Below, in pieces: positions 28,480-34,803 of a DNA stretch of 64,000 nt. The notes beneath the pieces are model-generated. The model saw only the letters and a list, made by a program, of their open reading frames with translations, made no database searches and was not told the origin of the DNA. The stretch comes from Mariniflexile sp. AS56. GTDB taxonomy: Bacteria > Bacteroidota > Bacteroidia > Flavobacteriales > Flavobacteriaceae. A program made the position numbers and the translations under genes. The stretch covers positions 1 to 64,000 of the forward strand of contig NZ_JAUPED010000012.1 in NCBI RefSeq assembly GCF_030552475.1, given 5' to 3'. How positions within the stretch are numbered: the first letter of the stretch is position 1; every line of letters starts with the position of its first letter.

Positions 28480-28500
28480 TAAACTCGTTTTTGTTAAATA

Positions 28501-28541
28501 AAAAAGTGCTAACACAATTTTATGTGTTAGCACTTTTTTTT
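28501..28541. terminator. bidirectional terminator between sucB and the small ORF
   Basis: Perfect 16-base arms AAAAAGTGCTAACACA (28501-28516) and TGTGTTAGCACTTTTT (28523-28538), followed by more Ts on the plus strand. It ends sucAB and can also end minus-strand transcripts that pass the 33-residue ORF (stop at 28554). Confidence 0.92.
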
Positions 28542-28553
28542 TAAATTGATTAA

Positions 28554-28655
28554 CTAACTCAAACAATAAAAGATATTTATTGCAATTACAATTACAACTA
28601 ATGTAATTAATCCGACAATAAAATATTTGTCCAGATAACTGTTATCCTTCTCCAT
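28554..28655 (-). CDS. candidate 33-residue single-helix membrane peptide
   Basis: A short frame encoding MEKDNSYLDKYFIVGLIT... with a charged N-terminus (about 10 residues), one long hydrophobic helix (about 12-30, LITLVVIVIAINIFY) and a Cys-Leu-Ser end. The open frame continues upstream, but composition and the presence of a hairpin and repeats argue that translation starts at the ATG at 28655. That ATG is preceded on the minus strand by a run of 16 As, one base away. It lies downstream of the repeat array and is the last thing before the sucB terminator. A similar-sized membrane peptide is encoded at 34879. No family recognised. Confidence 0.45.
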   Translation of the reverse strand: MEKDNSYLDKYFIVGLITLVVIVIAINIFYCLS

Positions 28656-28687
28656 GTTTTTTTTTTTTTTTTGGATTTCCAAAAAAA
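28656..28687 (-). repeat. 16-base homopolymer with adjacent palindrome before the small ORF
   Basis: On the plus strand, 28657-28672 is sixteen Ts (A16 just before the ATG on the coding strand). Part of the tract also forms TTTTTTTGGA / TCCAAAAAAA (28666-28675 and 28678-28687), a perfect 10-base inverted repeat. Such a tract can slip during replication and would change leader length. Confidence 0.8.
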
Positions 28688-28689
28688 CA

Positions 28690-28762
28690 GTAATACGACA
28701 CGCTGCATGATAAAACGCAGCGTGTCTGTGTTTTATGTAACCCCTTAGTAATTGATTAATAG
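28690..28762 (-). ncRNA. candidate small RNA 3 of the array (diverged unit)
   Basis: This unit follows the palindrome at 28795-28818 and the -7-like box TACCTTTA (28775-28768). Its start is expected near 28762. It shares the GCTATTAAT leader with units 1 and 2 but ends in a different, GC-rich hairpin GACACGCTGC / GCAGCGTGTC (28697-28706 and 28717-28726). That hairpin is followed on the minus strand after nine bases by seven Ts, so it could be a real terminator. It could alternatively be a leader for the 33-residue ORF. Confidence 0.4.
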
Positions 28763-28794
28763 CAGTGTAAAGGTAAGGTTTGTATGTCAGATAA

Positions 28795-28818
28795 AAAATA
28801 CGCAGTAGTACGTATTTT
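28795..28818. promoter_or_regulatory. palindromic operator, array unit 3
   Basis: AAAATACG (28795-28802), eight bases cagtagta, CGTATTTT (28811-28818): perfect 8-base arms. The spacer differs from units 1 and 2 while the arms are kept, as expected of a dimeric-protein site. It lies 19 bases upstream (minus strand) of a -7-like box. Confidence 0.65.
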
Positions 28819-28853
28819 AAGTTTTTAAGAGGCTTTATTGGGACTATTATAAA

Positions 28854-28917
28854 TGCAGAAGACTTTAAGCATAACACTTAAAGCCTTCCATAATTCTCCC
28901 TAAGAACTAATTAATAG
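28854..28917 (-). ncRNA. candidate small RNA 2 of the array
   Basis: It is preceded by the palindrome at 28949-28974 and TACCTTTA (28930-28923). The predicted RNA has a leader GCTATTAATTAG...TTAGGGAGAATTAT and a hairpin (28857-28869 with 28877-28889). Relative to unit 1, two bases of one arm have changed to G on the minus strand, opposite U, so both pairs remain as G-U in the minus RNA but would be A-C mismatches in a plus RNA. This supports a minus-strand RNA. A tiny ATG frame (8 codons) here is not conserved in unit 1. Confidence 0.42.
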
Positions 28918-28948
28918 CCTTGTAAAGGTATCCAGAATAAGAGTCTTA

Positions 28949-28974
28949 AAAAATACGCACTTCTACGTATTTTT
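28949..28974. promoter_or_regulatory. palindromic operator, array unit 2
   Basis: AAAAATACG (28949-28957), cacttcta, CGTATTTTT (28966-28974): perfect 9-base arms. Exactly 18 bases separate it from the -7-like TACCTTTA (28930-28923) on the minus strand, the same as in unit 1, although the intervening bases differ. Confidence 0.7.
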
Positions 28975-29009
28975 AGGTTATTGAAAGACTTTTATGAAAC
29001 TATTATAAA

Positions 29010-29073
29010 TGCAGAAGACTTTAAGCGAAACACTTAAAGTCTTCTATAATTCTCCCTAAGAACTAATTAATAG
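29010..29073 (-). ncRNA. candidate small RNA 1 of the array
   Basis: It is preceded by the palindrome at 29105-29130 and TATCTTTA (29086-29079). The hairpin is a perfect 13-base stem AGAAGACTTTAAG / CTTAAAGTCTTCT (29013-29025 and 29033-29045) with a seven-base loop. Downstream on the minus strand is GCATTTATAATAGTTT, only a weak T-tract, so termination is uncertain. A transcript of about 60-65 bases would result. Confidence 0.42.
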
Positions 29074-29104
29074 CACTGTAAAGATACAGTGAATAAGGGA
29101 TTTA

Positions 29105-29130
29105 AAAAATACGCACTTCTACGTATTTTT
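29105..29130. promoter_or_regulatory. palindromic operator, array unit 1
   Basis: AAAAATACG (29105-29113), cacttcta, CGTATTTTT (29122-29130): perfect 9-base arms. It overlaps the stop codon of the response-regulator gene (29129-29131). The centre lies about 31 bases upstream of the -7-like box, a position suited to an activator that replaces the -33 contact. Confidence 0.7.
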
Positions 29131-29758
29131 ACAAATGCTCCCTGTTATTATTAGCCCAAATAGATAATGAGGTTGGTTTATTATCTAAATTTAATTTAGC
29201 TACAATATTACTTCTGTGTTTATCTACCGTTCTAATAGATATAGATAATTCTTGAGCAATATCATTACTTGTTTTTGTTTCAGAAATAAGCTTTACAATT
29301 TTCAATTCTGTTTTGGTAAGTAGCTCTATTTCTGCAGGTTTGTGGTTCGTGCTGTATTTTAAATACTGAGCTATTTCTTCACTAAAATAAGGTTTGTTAT
29401 TTAAAGCATGCTCAATACAAGTTTCAATTTCTTCAACAGCAAATTCCTTTAAAATATAGCCGTAAACATTAAATTCTTTGGCTTGATCGTACAACTCTTC
29501 TTCTTTATCGAAGGTTATGATGATGATTTTAGTTGGTAAATTATTTTTTTTACAGGCTTCGGCAATTTCTAAACCTGTTTTGTGAGGCATTCTTATATCT
29601 AGAATCGCAATTTCTGGCTTTAATTTTACAATAAGATTGTAGGCCGTATTGCCATCTTCAGCACTTCCTATAATATTAAAACCTTTTGAGGTTAAAAAGG
29701 AACTGAGACCACGCAACATGATAGGATGGTCATCTGCTATAACAATAGAGGTGTTCAT
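29129..29758 (-). CDS. NarL/FixJ-family response regulator
   Basis: A 209-residue regulator. The receiver domain (1-120) has the acidic pair Asp9/Asp10, phosphoacceptor Asp54 (ILDIRMP) and Lys104 (YILKEF), so it should be phosphorylatable. The C-terminal LuxR-type helix-turn-helix (about 145-205) contains LTKTELKIVKLISETKTSNDIAQELSISIRTVDKHRSNI. No histidine kinase is linked. It starts 62 bases after the retropepsin gene, with a possible weak -7 (TATATTTA) between, and is the last protein gene of the PKD-CHAT-protease series. The three palindromes just beyond its 3' end are natural candidates for its binding sites, since NarL-type dimers bind inverted repeats; this is inference. Confidence 0.92.
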   Translation of the reverse strand: MNTSIVIADDHPIMLRGLSSFLTSKGFNIIGSAEDGNTAYNLIVKLKPEIAILDIRMPHKTGLEIAEACKKNNLPTKIIIITFDKEEELYDQAKEFNVYGYILKEFAVEEIETCIEHALNNKPYFSEEIAQYLKYSTNHKPAEIELLTKTELKIVKLISETKTSNDIAQELSISIRTVDKHRSNIVAKLNLDNKPTSLSIWANNNREHL

Positions 29759-29820: not shown

Positions 29821-30264
29821 TTAAGGTTTTAAGTAAAGGTATTTTGTCTCATAATCTATAACCGCATTTGATTTTTTTAAAATATCGGCCCCAATAATGC
29901 CATCAACTGGTTTTGATTTATGGTTTATAAGCGCCGTATTTACATGAGTAAGGTTAAATAAAACCAAGACAAGCTTGTTGGTTTCCCATTTACCAATGCG
30001 CACTTTGTTTTTTTTAGACATTTTAGTTTCCATATTAATGGCGCCTGCACCAGCCGCCAAAATATTGGAATCTTTTACTTTTAGATTAAACGTTTCTACA
30101 GCTTCGAAACCAACACAGGAATTAGAGGCGCCTGTATCTAAAATAAAGCGTCCTTTAACACCATTTAAAGTGGCCTTTATTTCAAAATGATTGGTTTTGG
30201 TAAGTCGTAACTTAACACGATTATAACCTTTATTTATAAGAAATTCTTGAAGAGTTTCGGTCAT
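29821..30264 (-). CDS. retropepsin-like aspartyl protease
   Basis: A 147-residue cytoplasmic protein of the clan AA fold. The catalytic motif FILDTGASNSCVG has Asp43-Thr44-Gly45-Ala46. The flap region is followed by the second hallmark GIIGADIL (about residues 124-131), a hydrophobic-hydrophobic-Gly motif, then VIDYETKYLYL. One active site per chain implies a homodimer, as in retroviral proteases. There is no signal peptide. It overlaps the 3' end of the CHAT gene by 35 bases, so the two are translationally linked. The target is unknown; nearby proteins such as the anti-sigma factor or the CHAT tail are possible substrates, but that is speculation. Confidence 0.88.
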   Translation of the reverse strand: MTETLQEFLINKGYNRVKLRLTKTNHFEIKATLNGVKGRFILDTGASNSCVGFEAVETFNLKVKDSNILAAGAGAINMETKMSKKNKVRIGKWETNKLVLVLFNLTHVNTALINHKSKPVDGIIGADILKKSNAVIDYETKYLYLKP

Positions 30265-32818
30265 GATTTTTAAATTTCAAAAATAAAAGTACCAAAATAA
30301 TAACGATTGCCATGCCAAAAAAAACATAAAACAGGCTGTTATGTGGTTTTTCGGTTTCCATATTTCCGTAATAAACAAAGGCACTCCAGTAGTAAGGTGA
30401 CTTTTTTACATTGGTAATGGCTTCATTTTCGAGGTATTCTATTTTTGAATGGTAATTCGCTATATACGCAGATTCCGATTTATTATAATGTTCATAAAAC
30501 GATTGCATGATTTGTGAGGTCGATAAATCATTTATTTGCCAAAGTGAAAACAATAAGTTATCTGCACCAGCATATTGAAACCCTCTCGCAATACTCATCG
30601 CGCCTTCACCCTTGTAAAGTTTGCCAATGCCCGTTTCGCAGGCGCTTAGCACCACTAACTTTGGGTTTAAATCTAAGCTGTATAATTCATTTAAAAATAG
30701 TGTGTCGTCATAAAACGAAATGTTGGCAGGGTTTACAACATCACCACTACTGGCATGGGTTGATAAGTGTAAAATACTATAAGAACTTGCATTTTTTATG
30801 AAGTTTTCTTTAGTTGCCTTCGCATTCCTAAATAGGGTTGATGGCATTTCCTTTTCAATAGCTTGTGCTTCGTTAACGGAATAGGTTAGTTTTTGGTTGG
30901 TGTTTTCAAATACGGGAAAGAAACCAAGCAGATCTTCGTTTTTGTATTTTTGACTTTCGTTTAGATAAAAGCTTGCACTCGAATTATAAACAATATTTTG
31001 TCTCCTAATTACAAAAGGCATTTTTGAAAAGGATGTCGAAGTCGTTTTAGAAGTAAGTAAAGCTTCAAACGGAATGAAGTTTAATAAGCCGTCAGGAATT
31101 ATGACAACGTTTTTATGGGAGGAAAGGGTGTTAAAATTCAGTAATTTGAAAATAGCGTAGGCTTGATTGGTGTAGTTTTTTATATCATTGTTTATAACGG
31201 AGGCATTGTCAAATAGATGAATAAAGCTTACTATGTTTTTTTGGACTTCTTCGCTTAATGGAATGCTTTCAATTGTTATGTCTTGTTCTGAAATAATGAA
31301 TTGGTATATGGTCTTTTTTCCGAAGAAATATTCAACTAAAACGGCGTCGTTTTTTTCTAATTTATTTTGAAAATCTTTTAAAGTGTCTGTCTTAGTGCTT
31401 TCTGGATGCTTTTTGGCAATAGCGGTTTTTATTGTCTTTAATTGAAGACTAATGGCGCTTAATTTTTTGCTTAAATGGTTAACAGTTGAGGCTTTATTTT
31501 TACCAAGCTGTTCTTTTATTAGTAAACCTGTATAATATTCTTGTGTTTTTAAAAGCTGAAATTCTTTAGTAAGTAAACTGTCATTTGGAAACTGTAGAAG
31601 GCGTTTTTTCTTCTGGTTCATATCCTTTAAAACAGATGCTTTGTTATTTTCTGAATATTGAAAAGCTTCAAATAAAAGCGCTGTATTTTTAGTTTGTTTA
31701 TAGCTGTTAAAAAGGATGTCGATACAGCGTTCACTTCTAATACGGTTAGTGGTTTCATTGAAAATTTTAGTTTCCTGTGAAGTCCAATTTTCTTGCAACA
31801 AATTAGAAACATGAAAGCTTAAATTATAGCTTCTTAAAGCTTTTTCAGGATTATTTTGAATGGCTGCATACAAGTCGAATATATCTATAAACGTGTTTTC
31901 TGAGTATAAATCTTTTTTACTGGGTAATCCAATACCATTAAAATGGGGTAGCAAAATTTTGAGAGCTTGTTGTAAACTATTTAAAGCTTCCTTTGGCCGA
32001 TTTAATAAATGAAATAATTTTGCTTCTTCTATTTGAAATTTGGCCCAATCTCTGGTTGATAGATTTTTTTTAGGAAGTAATTTTTTTGCTTTTTGGAAAG
32101 CAGTTAGCGCAGTTTCATAATTACCTTTTTGGAATTCTATAACATAATCAGCTTTATGCTTTTCAAAATCTGAGTTTCTTGAAGTATTGTTTAATATTGA
32201 AGCGCCTTCGTAATTATTTAAAGCAATCAAGCTGCTTGTTTTTATACTTTGAAGCAGTGCTTTCTGGGTGCCTTTTATATTAGGGAATTTAAAAGCGTCA
32301 TCAATAATTTTTAAGACCGTTTCATGCTTGTTAATAGTTTGATATAATTTAGCCAAGTTGATAGCGCCACTAATTTGATGTTGGGTGTTTTTACTTTTTT
32401 CTGCTAAAAATATATATTGATTGATGGTGCTTACAGCATTGGTGTAATCGTCCGTTTTGGTGTATAAATTACCGAGTGGTTTTAAGCAATTTTCAATAAT
32501 GTCGAAATCTGAAAGTTTTGAAAGCTCATATGTATTGAATCGTTTCAGGGCATCTTCATAAGTGGAAATAGCTTCTTTTAGTTTTGAATGGGCGTCTAAA
32601 TAATAGCCCTTGTGGCATTGTAAAAAAACGAGTGCGAGTTGTTCATCTTTAGATGTTGCATGTGTTTTAAATGAGGCTTCTTGCTGATTTAAAAGCTTTA
32701 ATGCTGCATCATTTTTAGTACTAATAAAAGTTTCTGCAGCCGTATAAATAGCTTCTTCTAAATTTTGAGAAAAAGAGATTCCATAAATTAAAAAGAAGAA
32801 GATATATAGGTTTTTCAT
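30230..32818 (-). CDS. membrane-anchored TPR-CHAT (caspase-like) protein
   Basis: An 862-residue protein. An N-terminal signal peptide (MKNLYIFFFLIYGISFSQ) is followed by tetratricopeptide repeats (about 30-400). The C-terminal CHAT domain (about 500-800) has the catalytic His in ILHLSTHASSGD (near 687) and Cys in LVVLSACETGIG (near 727), both intact. One membrane helix follows (about 825-845, FGMAIVIILVLLFLKF) and a short basic tail. The topology suggests a periplasmic TPR-CHAT protease tethered to the inner membrane. The start at 32818 was chosen because it opens directly into the signal peptide; an upstream extension is not credible. It is 29 bases behind the PKD gene and overlaps the retropepsin gene. 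Confidence 0.92.
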   Translation of the reverse strand: MKNLYIFFFLIYGISFSQNLEEAIYTAAETFISTKNDAALKLLNQQEASFKTHATSKDEQLALVFLQCHKGYYLDAHSKLKEAISTYEDALKRFNTYELSKLSDFDIIENCLKPLGNLYTKTDDYTNAVSTINQYIFLAEKSKNTQHQISGAINLAKLYQTINKHETVLKIIDDAFKFPNIKGTQKALLQSIKTSSLIALNNYEGASILNNTSRNSDFEKHKADYVIEFQKGNYETALTAFQKAKKLLPKKNLSTRDWAKFQIEEAKLFHLLNRPKEALNSLQQALKILLPHFNGIGLPSKKDLYSENTFIDIFDLYAAIQNNPEKALRSYNLSFHVSNLLQENWTSQETKIFNETTNRIRSERCIDILFNSYKQTKNTALLFEAFQYSENNKASVLKDMNQKKKRLLQFPNDSLLTKEFQLLKTQEYYTGLLIKEQLGKNKASTVNHLSKKLSAISLQLKTIKTAIAKKHPESTKTDTLKDFQNKLEKNDAVLVEYFFGKKTIYQFIISEQDITIESIPLSEEVQKNIVSFIHLFDNASVINNDIKNYTNQAYAIFKLLNFNTLSSHKNVVIIPDGLLNFIPFEALLTSKTTSTSFSKMPFVIRRQNIVYNSSASFYLNESQKYKNEDLLGFFPVFENTNQKLTYSVNEAQAIEKEMPSTLFRNAKATKENFIKNASSYSILHLSTHASSGDVVNPANISFYDDTLFLNELYSLDLNPKLVVLSACETGIGKLYKGEGAMSIARGFQYAGADNLLFSLWQINDLSTSQIMQSFYEHYNKSESAYIANYHSKIEYLENEAITNVKKSPYYWSAFVYYGNMETEKPHNSLFYVFFGMAIVIILVLLFLKFKNHDRNSSRISYK

Positions 32819-32847
32819 GAGTGTGTACTGGCAAACGAAGTTTATAT

Positions 32848-34803
32848 TTAGAATTTCCAAATGGCATAAAACTGCCAATAATTAAAGTCATTTTCAAAAT
32901 TCATAATATAACGCGCACCTAAACTGGGGCCTATTCTAGCGAAACCTGCTGTAGCTTCAAAGAGTAAGCCAGTTCTTAAATTAGTGAATGAATTGGTTTC
33001 AGAGCTTGAACTTTCTTTGCTGCTAAATGGTGGGAAATCGCTTGAATCTCCTTCATATTGTTCTACTAATACCGCTTGTTCTTGTTCTTCACTTAACGAA
33101 ATCGTGTTTTGTAAACCAGCGCCTAAACCAAAAAAATTATTAAGATTGTAGCGTATTAGAACAGGCACATCCCAATCAATATTTTCAAAAGAATTTCTGG
33201 TAGTGGTGCGCTGTAAAAACCGAAACCCTTGCGCATCTTGAATAAATTCTTCGCTTACTTGTGTTGAAGCATCGTACTTATGAAAATTATTCATCAACTC
33301 TACTTGCCAATACAAGCGATAGGATTTGTAAGGAGATAGAGTAGCTCCAAAAAAGTAGCTTTCGGAATTGTTTAAATCTGAAAAGGAATTTACCCCAACC
33401 TTTGCGCCAATAGAAATTCCTGGAAGAAACCGCGTGGTGGAATAGTTGGTAATAATAGGGTCGTTTTTATCAAAAATAATAGCGGTTCTACTTTTTGTTT
33501 TTTTCTTATGAAAATCTTTAGCAAACTTGATACTGTATTTTACAAAGCCTTTGGTAGAATCGTATTCCATTACGTTTTTTTGTTCGCTTCCGGGAAGGTA
33601 AATGTTTTTAAAGGTGAATATCGCCTGAGTGTCTGTAAACGTCGTGTCTAAACAACTATATAAAACTTCTTTTTTAGGGCAGATATCACATTTGGGATAC
33701 ATATCTAAAACTTTTAGAGTCGATTTATCCAACATTTCAGGAATATCAGTTTCCAAACGAATGGTGCGTGCGGGCCCTTCACCGTTATTTTGAAACTTGA
33801 TTTTATATTTTAATGTTTTAAAACGAACGAACCTATAATTCATAAAAGTACCGTTTGATGACATTTTATTGGGATCGTGCGAGGTTACAATTTCCATTTC
33901 CATGTCCTTAACCTTATGGTTATCGTAATTAGCATCTGGCACATACACACCTCGCACAGAAATGATGGCGCTGGTATCCTTAAGCATCTCGGGAGTTGTT
34001 TTTAAACTAAAAAAGACATTGCGTTCTTCTTGAGGTTTCATATTATCGAACTCTAAAAGGCTCCAGTTTTTGTAAAAGGCTTTCGAGTTTATAACGGTTA
34101 AGGGCAAATTATTTTTTTCGGTAGAATCTTGCTGAAAGGTACGCGCTTCTATAAAGTCGTTATTGGACGTTGCTAAATAAGTGCCATCATTCTCTATGTT
34201 ATGGGTGAAAGCAAAACCAGCTTCCGAAGTGTTTTTTTCGTTGTAATACGTTCGTGTGTCTGTTAATTCAAAATTATTGGCTTTGTATTGGTGTTCGTTG
34301 TAAAAAAGATACAATTTTCCGTTTGTAGTATAGTTTTTTTGGTTTTTGTAACTTACTATAACCACCATTTCTTCATCTGGAACCGGTTCGCGGTTGCGTT
34401 TTAATGTGAAGTCTTCGTCCATACTTGCAATGTCATTATCCTGAGTTGTTATGTTGTTTATTGCAATTTTTTTAGGTCGGGTTGTTGGTGGTTTTCCAGT
34501 ATCATAATTGTTAGTAGCCCATAAACGTACGTCGTATTCACCAGTTTTTTTATAACTGTGTTTTGGTTGTTCTTCCGTACTGTAGTGGCCATCGCCAAAT
34601 TCCCAGTAATGGGTATAAAAGGCTTTGGGAGCTCCTGCAATTTGATTTAAAGTTGGTGTTTCGGGTGTGAATAAAACGGTATTGCCTTGAGTGATATTTT
34701 TAATGTTTGCAATGCGGGTGAGCGTATCGTTTTCAATAGGCTTTTGGGCATAGCTGTTAATAGTCAATAAAATTAAACAGAAGAAAGAAAACCGCTTGTT
34801 CAT
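32848..34803 (-). CDS. secreted PKD-domain protein with C-terminal outer-membrane barrel
   Basis: A 651-residue protein. The signal peptide ends at NSYAQ (about 20). A PKD domain follows (about 55-105) with the hallmark YWEFGDGHYSTEEQPKHSY...GEYDVRLWATN. The middle has beta-sandwich domains, including a DUF11-like segment LKYKIKFQNNGEGPARTIRL and a four-Cys cluster (CDICPK with nearby Cys, about 380-400). The last ~185 residues form a barrel-like region (SIGAKVGVNSFSDLNNSESYFFGAT...YWQFYAIWKF) ending in an aromatic residue. It probably sits in the outer membrane with the PKD part exposed. It is followed by the CHAT gene at 29 bases and may sense or bind an external ligand for the cascade. Confidence 0.85.
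   Translation of the reverse strand: MNKRFSFFCLILLTINSYAQKPIENDTLTRIANIKNITQGNTVLFTPETPTLNQIAGAPKAFYTHYWEFGDGHYSTEEQPKHSYKKTGEYDVRLWATNNYDTGKPPTTRPKKIAINNITTQDNDIASMDEDFTLKRNREPVPDEEMVVIVSYKNQKNYTTNGKLYLFYNEHQYKANNFELTDTRTYYNEKNTSEAGFAFTHNIENDGTYLATSNNDFIEARTFQQDSTEKNNLPLTVINSKAFYKNWSLLEFDNMKPQEERNVFFSLKTTPEMLKDTSAIISVRGVYVPDANYDNHKVKDMEMEIVTSHDPNKMSSNGTFMNYRFVRFKTLKYKIKFQNNGEGPARTIRLETDIPEMLDKSTLKVLDMYPKCDICPKKEVLYSCLDTTFTDTQAIFTFKNIYLPGSEQKNVMEYDSTKGFVKYSIKFAKDFHKKKTKSRTAIIFDKNDPIITNYSTTRFLPGISIGAKVGVNSFSDLNNSESYFFGATLSPYKSYRLYWQVELMNNFHKYDASTQVSEEFIQDAQGFRFLQRTTTRNSFENIDWDVPVLIRYNLNNFFGLGAGLQNTISLSEEQEQAVLVEQYEGDSSDFPPFSSKESSSSETNSFTNLRTGLLFEATAGFARIGPSLGARYIMNFENDFNYWQFYAIWKF

Follow-up and report, generated by a model that had tools for sequence, protein, structure and literature searches.

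The minus strand of the window, the stretch of 64,000 nucleotides analysed here, carries three promoter units 3′ of the gene for a NarL/LuxR-type response regulator (RR), at spacings of 155 and 156 bases. These are the repeat units of about 155 bases that a first-pass annotation had described behind this gene, and TRF reports them as a 156-base unit in 2.2 copies with a score of 491, one of two arrays within the 64 kb. Each unit has the same order, a palindrome followed by a TAYCTTTA box and then a start at GCTATTAAT. The three palindromes were all located on the minus strand as TACG-N8-CGTA, in agreement with that annotation, with cores at 29110-29125, 28954-28969 and 28799-28814; operator 1 sits one base past the RR stop codon. 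Promoters of F. johnsoniae have, by the account given in PMC6847099, a -7 consensus of TAHHTTTG at positions -12 to -5. Applied to the window, this rule puts +1 at the G of GCTATTAAT and the predicted starts at 29074, 28918 and 28763, each one base away from the earlier estimates (near 29073, 28917 and 28762), and the palindromes then centre on -43 relative to the predicted +1. The features of the locus, in the direction of the minus strand, are:

30230-32878, minus strand: TPR-CHAT protein gene, upstream neighbour (PF12770)
29821-30264, minus strand: retropepsin-like aspartyl protease gene, upstream neighbour of the RR gene (PF13650)
29129-29758, minus strand: NarL/LuxR-type RR gene (Pfam PF00072, receiver; PF00196, GerE)
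29108-29127, minus strand: operator 1, AATACG-N8-CGTATT, centre at about -43 (from the sequence and the geometry in relatives)
29079-29086, minus strand: -7 box of unit 1, TATCTTTA (from the sequence)
29002-29074, minus strand: putative small RNA of unit 1, predicted start 29074 (fold z -5.2; match to model R1)
28952-28971, minus strand: operator 2 (from the sequence)
28923-28930, minus strand: -7 box of unit 2, TACCTTTA (from the sequence)
28846-28918, minus strand: putative small RNA of unit 2, predicted start 28918 (fold z -4.1; match to model R1)
28797-28816, minus strand: operator 3 (from the sequence)
28768-28775, minus strand: -7 box of unit 3, again TACCTTTA (from the sequence)
28656-28763, minus strand: unit 3, putative 5′ leader of the small-protein mRNA, predicted start 28763 (fold z -4.7; same arrangement in relatives)
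28554-28655, minus strand: gene for a 33-aa single-pass membrane protein, MEKDNSYLDKYFIVGLITLVVIVIAINIFYCLS (follows second units in relatives; pN/pS)
28500-28539, listed on the plus strand and symmetric by sequence: terminator common to the small-protein gene and its convergent sucB-type neighbour

The gene order TPR-CHAT, retropepsin-like protease, RR is conserved, with the protease present in 24 of 30 RR loci, and by eye the TPR-CHAT protein has an apparent signal peptide and a C-terminal membrane stretch. Within the window, no gene for a sensor kinase was recognised next to the RR gene. A run of about 15 A on the minus strand at 28656-28680 ends just 5′ of the small-protein ATG; its length may vary, since the relatives L009 and L010 have other run lengths. 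The terminator between the convergent sucB-type and small-protein genes is strong.

Units 1 and 2 open with the same 28 bases, a leader that folds into a hairpin whose loop is UAGGG, and a second, terminator-like hairpin lies 3′ of this leader hairpin. The fold energies are -24.7 kcal/mol for unit 1, -21.9 kcal/mol for unit 2 and -27.4 kcal/mol for unit 3 and, for each of the three, none of 200 shuffles was as stable as the native sequence. The sequence confirms the earlier remark that, at the two arm positions where units 1 and 2 differ, pairing is kept, as G-U, only in minus-strand RNA; the hairpin loops differ between these units as well. The leader had been described as shared by all three units, which holds for the identical bases of units 1 and 2, whereas unit 3 has only GCTATTAAT and a weak similarity. 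Its GC-rich hairpin, at 28697-28726, is indeed a different and unrelated one. In the window the hairpins end in GCATTTATAATAG; beside the U tracts of many relatives this one is weak. A short ORF in unit 2 (ATGGAAGGC...) was rejected as coding because unit 1 has ATA instead. Model R1 matches the window at 29006-29074 (E 6.5e-10) and 28849-28918, where the window rows belong to the training alignment. Judged by comparison with relatives, units 1 and 2 are best read as encoding sibling small RNAs of about 70 bases.

Operator classes and the regulators beside them

The leader was found in six of six genomes of the genus, that of the window included, at up to two mismatches, and in 67 of 299 genomes of the family at up to one; the reversed leader pattern, run as a control on the same genus and family genomes, gave no matches. 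A scan of named genomes yielded at least 115 stretches carrying the leader and, among the 80 matches listed, the titles bear names that we take to be those of Flavobacteriaceae genera, or Flavobacteriales, Bacteroidia or Bacteroidetes labels. Relatives, drawn from these stretches and from further loci, provided at least 152 distinct units (loci L008-L162, leader with up to four substitutions). The count leaves aside any copy of the window's loci, any unit whose 80 bases repeat those of another, and any unit truncated at the edge of its locus. The 28-base leader is identical in 107 of these 152 units and the TAGGG loop is present in 146, a conservation that is inflated because most units were fetched by the leader pattern.

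Operators in the set are of the type TACG...CGTA in 109 units, TACTC...GAGTA in 32 and TACC...GGTA in seven (six of these convincing, one weak at three mismatches), with none in four. The distance from operator centre to start is 43 bases in 105 of the 109 TACG units, 42.5 in all 32 TACTC units and 43 in six of the seven TACC units. An operator of type A (TACG) or B (TACTC) with up to two mismatches and its centre 38-48 bases 5′ of the start is present in 144 of the 152 units, against one of 3040 base-shuffled upstream sequences. The operators form at least three classes placed at equal distance from the predicted start. A looser classing, used for some counts below, gives 114, 33 and 5 units and counts some TACC-type operators as class A.

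Ninety of the 152 units lie within 700 bases behind an orthologue of the window RR and 31 behind an orthologue of a PAS-LuxR regulator; 31 carry neither label, and some of these are close to the edge of a locus or deeper within an array. Under the looser classing, 89 of 114 TACG units are behind the RR and 31 of 33 TACTC units behind the PAS-LuxR regulator. The neighbourhoods of TACC units vary, as annotated in three loci: the unit of L079 lies behind a TPR histidine kinase and a NarL-type RR, that of L059 has a PAS-LuxR gene downstream, and that of L052 has a histidine kinase with two-component propeller repeats upstream on the opposite strand. At L124:2380-2720 a leader unit is found amid TTACGG...CCGTAA repeats behind a kinase-like/regulator-like pair, and these repeats are perhaps a fourth operator class.

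The genome of the window has, in addition, an unlinked PAS-LuxR (class B, TACTC) copy at G000:C1:295915-295998. The sibling-RNA trait is present in this genome to the extent that units 1 and 2 and this copy each have an operator and a -7-like box by sequence. The sole match detected between the window and the PAS-LuxR locus is the leader itself, 36 bases at 94%, which indicates that the leader has been kept on its own. In class B the next ORF of at least 150 aa is convergent in 29 of 33 units, and in those units the RNA is therefore no leader of a neighbouring gene; in three units that ORF is on the same strand, and one unit has none within 1500 bases. Beyond this genome's own class B copy, too, a same-strand gene comes next, at about 490 bases. 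Overall, the RNA is not private to the window RR, as the same leader stands behind PAS-LuxR regulators and, in L079, behind a histidine kinase-RR pair.

Several loci have arrangements of their own. In L108 (1-2000) a class B unit adjoins a sucB-type gene that converges on it, and thereby takes the place which in the window belongs to the RR locus. In L031, L144 and perhaps L135, leader units follow the protease gene and no intervening RR gene was recognised; L031 retains an operator-like palindrome. The largest array seen, at L157:2252-4380, has five leader-pattern units, or seven model matches, in tandem behind one RR.

The first-pass annotation had proposed a covariance-model search of flavobacterial genomes. 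Among 57 RR orthologues in 120 family genomes (E about 1e-60 or better), 34 have an R1 match within 1 kb downstream and 23 have none, counts in which the strict R1 filters lose weak matches and the training set of R1 overlaps some of the RR-locus sequences; the RNA is therefore not an obligate partner of the RR. In the top 30 RR loci, chosen by protein score alone, an operator lies behind the RR in 28 and a full leader (up to three mismatches) in 19, with one to four operators per locus and seven, as overlapping matches, in one. Since 143 of 600 shuffles of 925 bases also contain at least one operator match, only the position of the operator beside the RR stop codon is informative in this test. 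Relatives that keep the RR and have no conserved palindromes or hairpins had been expected to speak against sibling RNAs; by these counts the palindrome is present in 28 of 30 loci, and 23 of 57 orthologues are without a match to the RNA. An order-wide sample gave matches in five of 196 genomes, namely the genome of the window and four of its family. Taken with the orthologue counts, this indicates that the RNA is a feature of one part of the family and that the RR can exist without it.

Conservation of the RNA structure

Alignment A1 comprises 50 sequences, two from the window and 48 from class A, for which 60 units had been picked; the other 12, six of them of TACC type, were left out by hand. 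Thirteen of its 21 pairs change on both sides, with 106 double-change cells against 30.9 in shuffles, and for each of the five whole-structure measures none of 500 shuffles reaches the observed value. Kinship can mimic such a signal without structure; nevertheless, 94.6% of the cells are paired, and this drops to 38-60% when the structure is slid. In the second hairpin, which was not selected by the leader pattern, 11 of 14 pairs change on both sides. Covariation in the leader hairpin (SL1) is thin, with double changes in two of seven pairs.

The model built from A1 matches all 42 loci outside its training set, which are the 12 left-out units, 29 loci of class B and the PAS-LuxR copy in this genome; apart from that copy, all of the 42 had originally been fetched by the leader pattern. 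The alifold consensus of the class B loci shows the same two-hairpin plan. Over the 152 units, the region from +29 to +88 has a mean folding energy of -18.6 kcal/mol, which shuffling raises to -6.7 kcal/mol. A U-rich tail follows a stem in 122 of these units and in 99 of 760 shuffles. A test for stems of at least nine pairs did not discriminate, being positive in 151 of 152 units and 623 of 760 shuffles.

The third unit and the 33-residue membrane protein

Judged by its counterparts in relatives, unit 3 is not a sibling RNA but supplies the promoter and leader for a transmembrane protein of 33 aa, which is conserved. Second units in relatives (67 units in 65 loci) have the same operator and box and another leader, often AATTCTTTTGAGAGAGAATT, and in 53 of the 65 loci they are followed by a single-pass protein of about 30-40 aa. 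This protein is under purifying selection: pN/pS is 0.21 over 77 pairs, and a count over 62 pairs gives 368 differences at first codon positions, 153 at second and 791 at third. It falls into no family of Pfam or NCBIfam. In a test made independently of the RNA, a small membrane ORF lies within 700 bases in 25 of the 30 RR loci, or 24 without the doubtful L217; the other strand has one in a single locus of the 30, and shuffles have one in 6%.

In L218, L220 and L222, which are more distant relatives, the RR-adjacent operator places +1 on the start codon of the membrane protein or no more than two bases from it, and on this ground the small RNA units look like later additions. We infer, from an unrooted comparison, that the circuit from the RR to the membrane protein is the older one and that the RNA units arose by duplication of its promoter. 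The protein would most likely serve the signalling pathway of the RR, as its feedback or envelope partner. MgrB-type proteins are short single-pass feedback proteins encoded under a neighbouring regulator. The 33-aa protein resembles them in size, in its membrane stretch and in its position beside a regulator; it differs in that the constant feature here is an Asn inside the membrane stretch, found in 53 of 53 small proteins aligned by eye.

Proposed mode of action and relation to known systems

We consider it probable that the locus encodes sibling RNAs (units 1 and 2) and a membrane protein (unit 3) switched by the NarL-type RR, with an RNA that is common to other regulators. Comparison among relatives demonstrates the promoter geometry, the RNA structure, the adjacency to regulators and the selection on the small protein, as features of the sequence. 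The activated NarL-type regulator would bind each palindrome centred at -43 and turn on the flavobacterial -7 promoter of each unit. The units would be transcribed into RNAs in which the constant 5′ hairpin with its UAGGG loop is the presumed working part, acting in trans through the leader, and in which the variable second hairpin would end transcription. At the third unit, the same operator would drive the 33-aa protein. The copies behind PAS-LuxR regulators and, in one locus, a histidine kinase-RR pair would bring several signals to one RNA-level output. The original proposal of sibling small RNAs under the adjacent RR is thereby narrowed: it stands for units 1 and 2, where leader, covarying hairpin, promoter geometry and RR adjacency are kept, and falls away for unit 3, which belongs to the small-protein gene, and for the notion of an RNA serving this RR alone.

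The small gene lies directly after unit 3 and its equivalents, short U tracts end some of the hairpins of unit-3 type, and in L218, L220 and L222 the predicted start lies at the start codon of that gene. These observations would suit units that are duplicated promoters and attenuating leaders of the membrane protein gene, where most transcripts stop at each hairpin and the RNAs have no function in trans. We think such a role for all the units unlikely, however, since the same leader occurs in class B behind another regulator with the next large ORF mostly convergent, a U-tailed hairpin follows in most first-type units, and first-type leaders are far better conserved than unit-3 leaders, in part through the method of fetching. 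The operators found behind nearly all of the 30 RR genes would also be expected of an array of decoy or autoregulatory sites for the RR with an incidental RNA; -7 box, leader and covarying hairpin are all kept, although a decoy could do without them, and we regard this explanation as highly improbable.

Exact 10-base complements of the leader core (TTCTCCCTAA) are not enriched in six genomes, where 28 forward and 8 reverse places, units included, compare with 22 and 26 for the reversed control; the search covered perfect 10-base complements, as distinct from wobble pairs or shorter seeds. Thirty of the 36 places were fetched, of which 16 are not units and have no common site position, and one weak protein similarity among these 16 loci lies away from the site. 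A match at G000:C23:47286, on the wrong strand and across a gene start, was dismissed as chance. The lack of enrichment would suit a variant that overlaps with our preferred reading, in which the RNA titrates a protein through its UAGGG loop in the manner of CsrB and does not pair with mRNA. The conserved part is one short hairpin whose purine loop contains AGGGA, and NarL-family RRs drive CsrB-type RNAs in gamma-proteobacteria (see PMC2375449). The likeness to RsmX/Y/Z and CsrB under GacA/UvrY extends to the upstream palindrome, the sibling RNAs and the GGA-type loops (see PMC2375449 and PMC7911923). In the alignments, however, each RNA has a single UAGGG loop and not many GGA motifs, and CsrA (PF02599) occurs in none of 60 family genomes, against 3 of 14 in the control. 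A sponge for CsrA was accordingly rejected; another RNA-binding protein could take its place, and titration as such seems to us unlikely.

No Rfam family other than tRNA exceeds its gathering threshold in the window, the best weak match scoring 21.6 bits against a threshold of 59. Literature searches, with most subscription journals outside their scope, gave no description of the RNA family or the small protein, and a search of papers for the sequence strings found nothing, a result of low weight because papers seldom print such motifs. LhrC1-5 of Listeria monocytogenes, described in PMC4132741 as multicopy short RNAs with their own promoters under two-component control (LisRK), share with the present units, as predicted here, these three traits as well as a repeated loop motif and a terminator loop. 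By the same account the motifs of LhrC are CU-rich (UCCC), and masking a ribosome-binding site is among their uses. Here, in contrast, the loop is UAGGG, several regulators have their own copy, and the host phylum, the Bacteroidetes, has mRNAs without Shine-Dalgarno sites, according to PMC6847099; the two are set apart by description, not by sequence. Rfp18, presented in PMC9723704, on the transcriptome of Flavobacterium psychrophilum, as a conserved small RNA, comes from the same bacterial family; it is predicted to pair through a third stem-loop, and its targets include metalloprotease mRNAs. Identity with Rfp18 was rejected on this described structure, as opposed to sequence, since the RNA here has two hairpins.

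Going beyond the reading preferred above, we tentatively suggest a shared output line, in which each LuxR-type regulator has its own promoter-linked copy of the RNA, the tiny membrane protein was the original output whose promoter the RNAs copied, and the UAGGG hairpin is the ligand of an undescribed RNA-binding protein or follows a new pairing rule; we think this possible but less likely than not. The family offers a precise object for experiment: the promoter geometry is fixed, the 28-base leader constant, the operators of three or more classes and the small membrane protein linked, and many named genera carry it. Our impression from the literature searches is that few regulatory RNAs have been studied in Flavobacteriaceae, a family of a phylum whose mRNAs are without Shine-Dalgarno sites. 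If our interpretation is correct, one RNA output would be reused by several signalling systems in Flavobacteriaceae.
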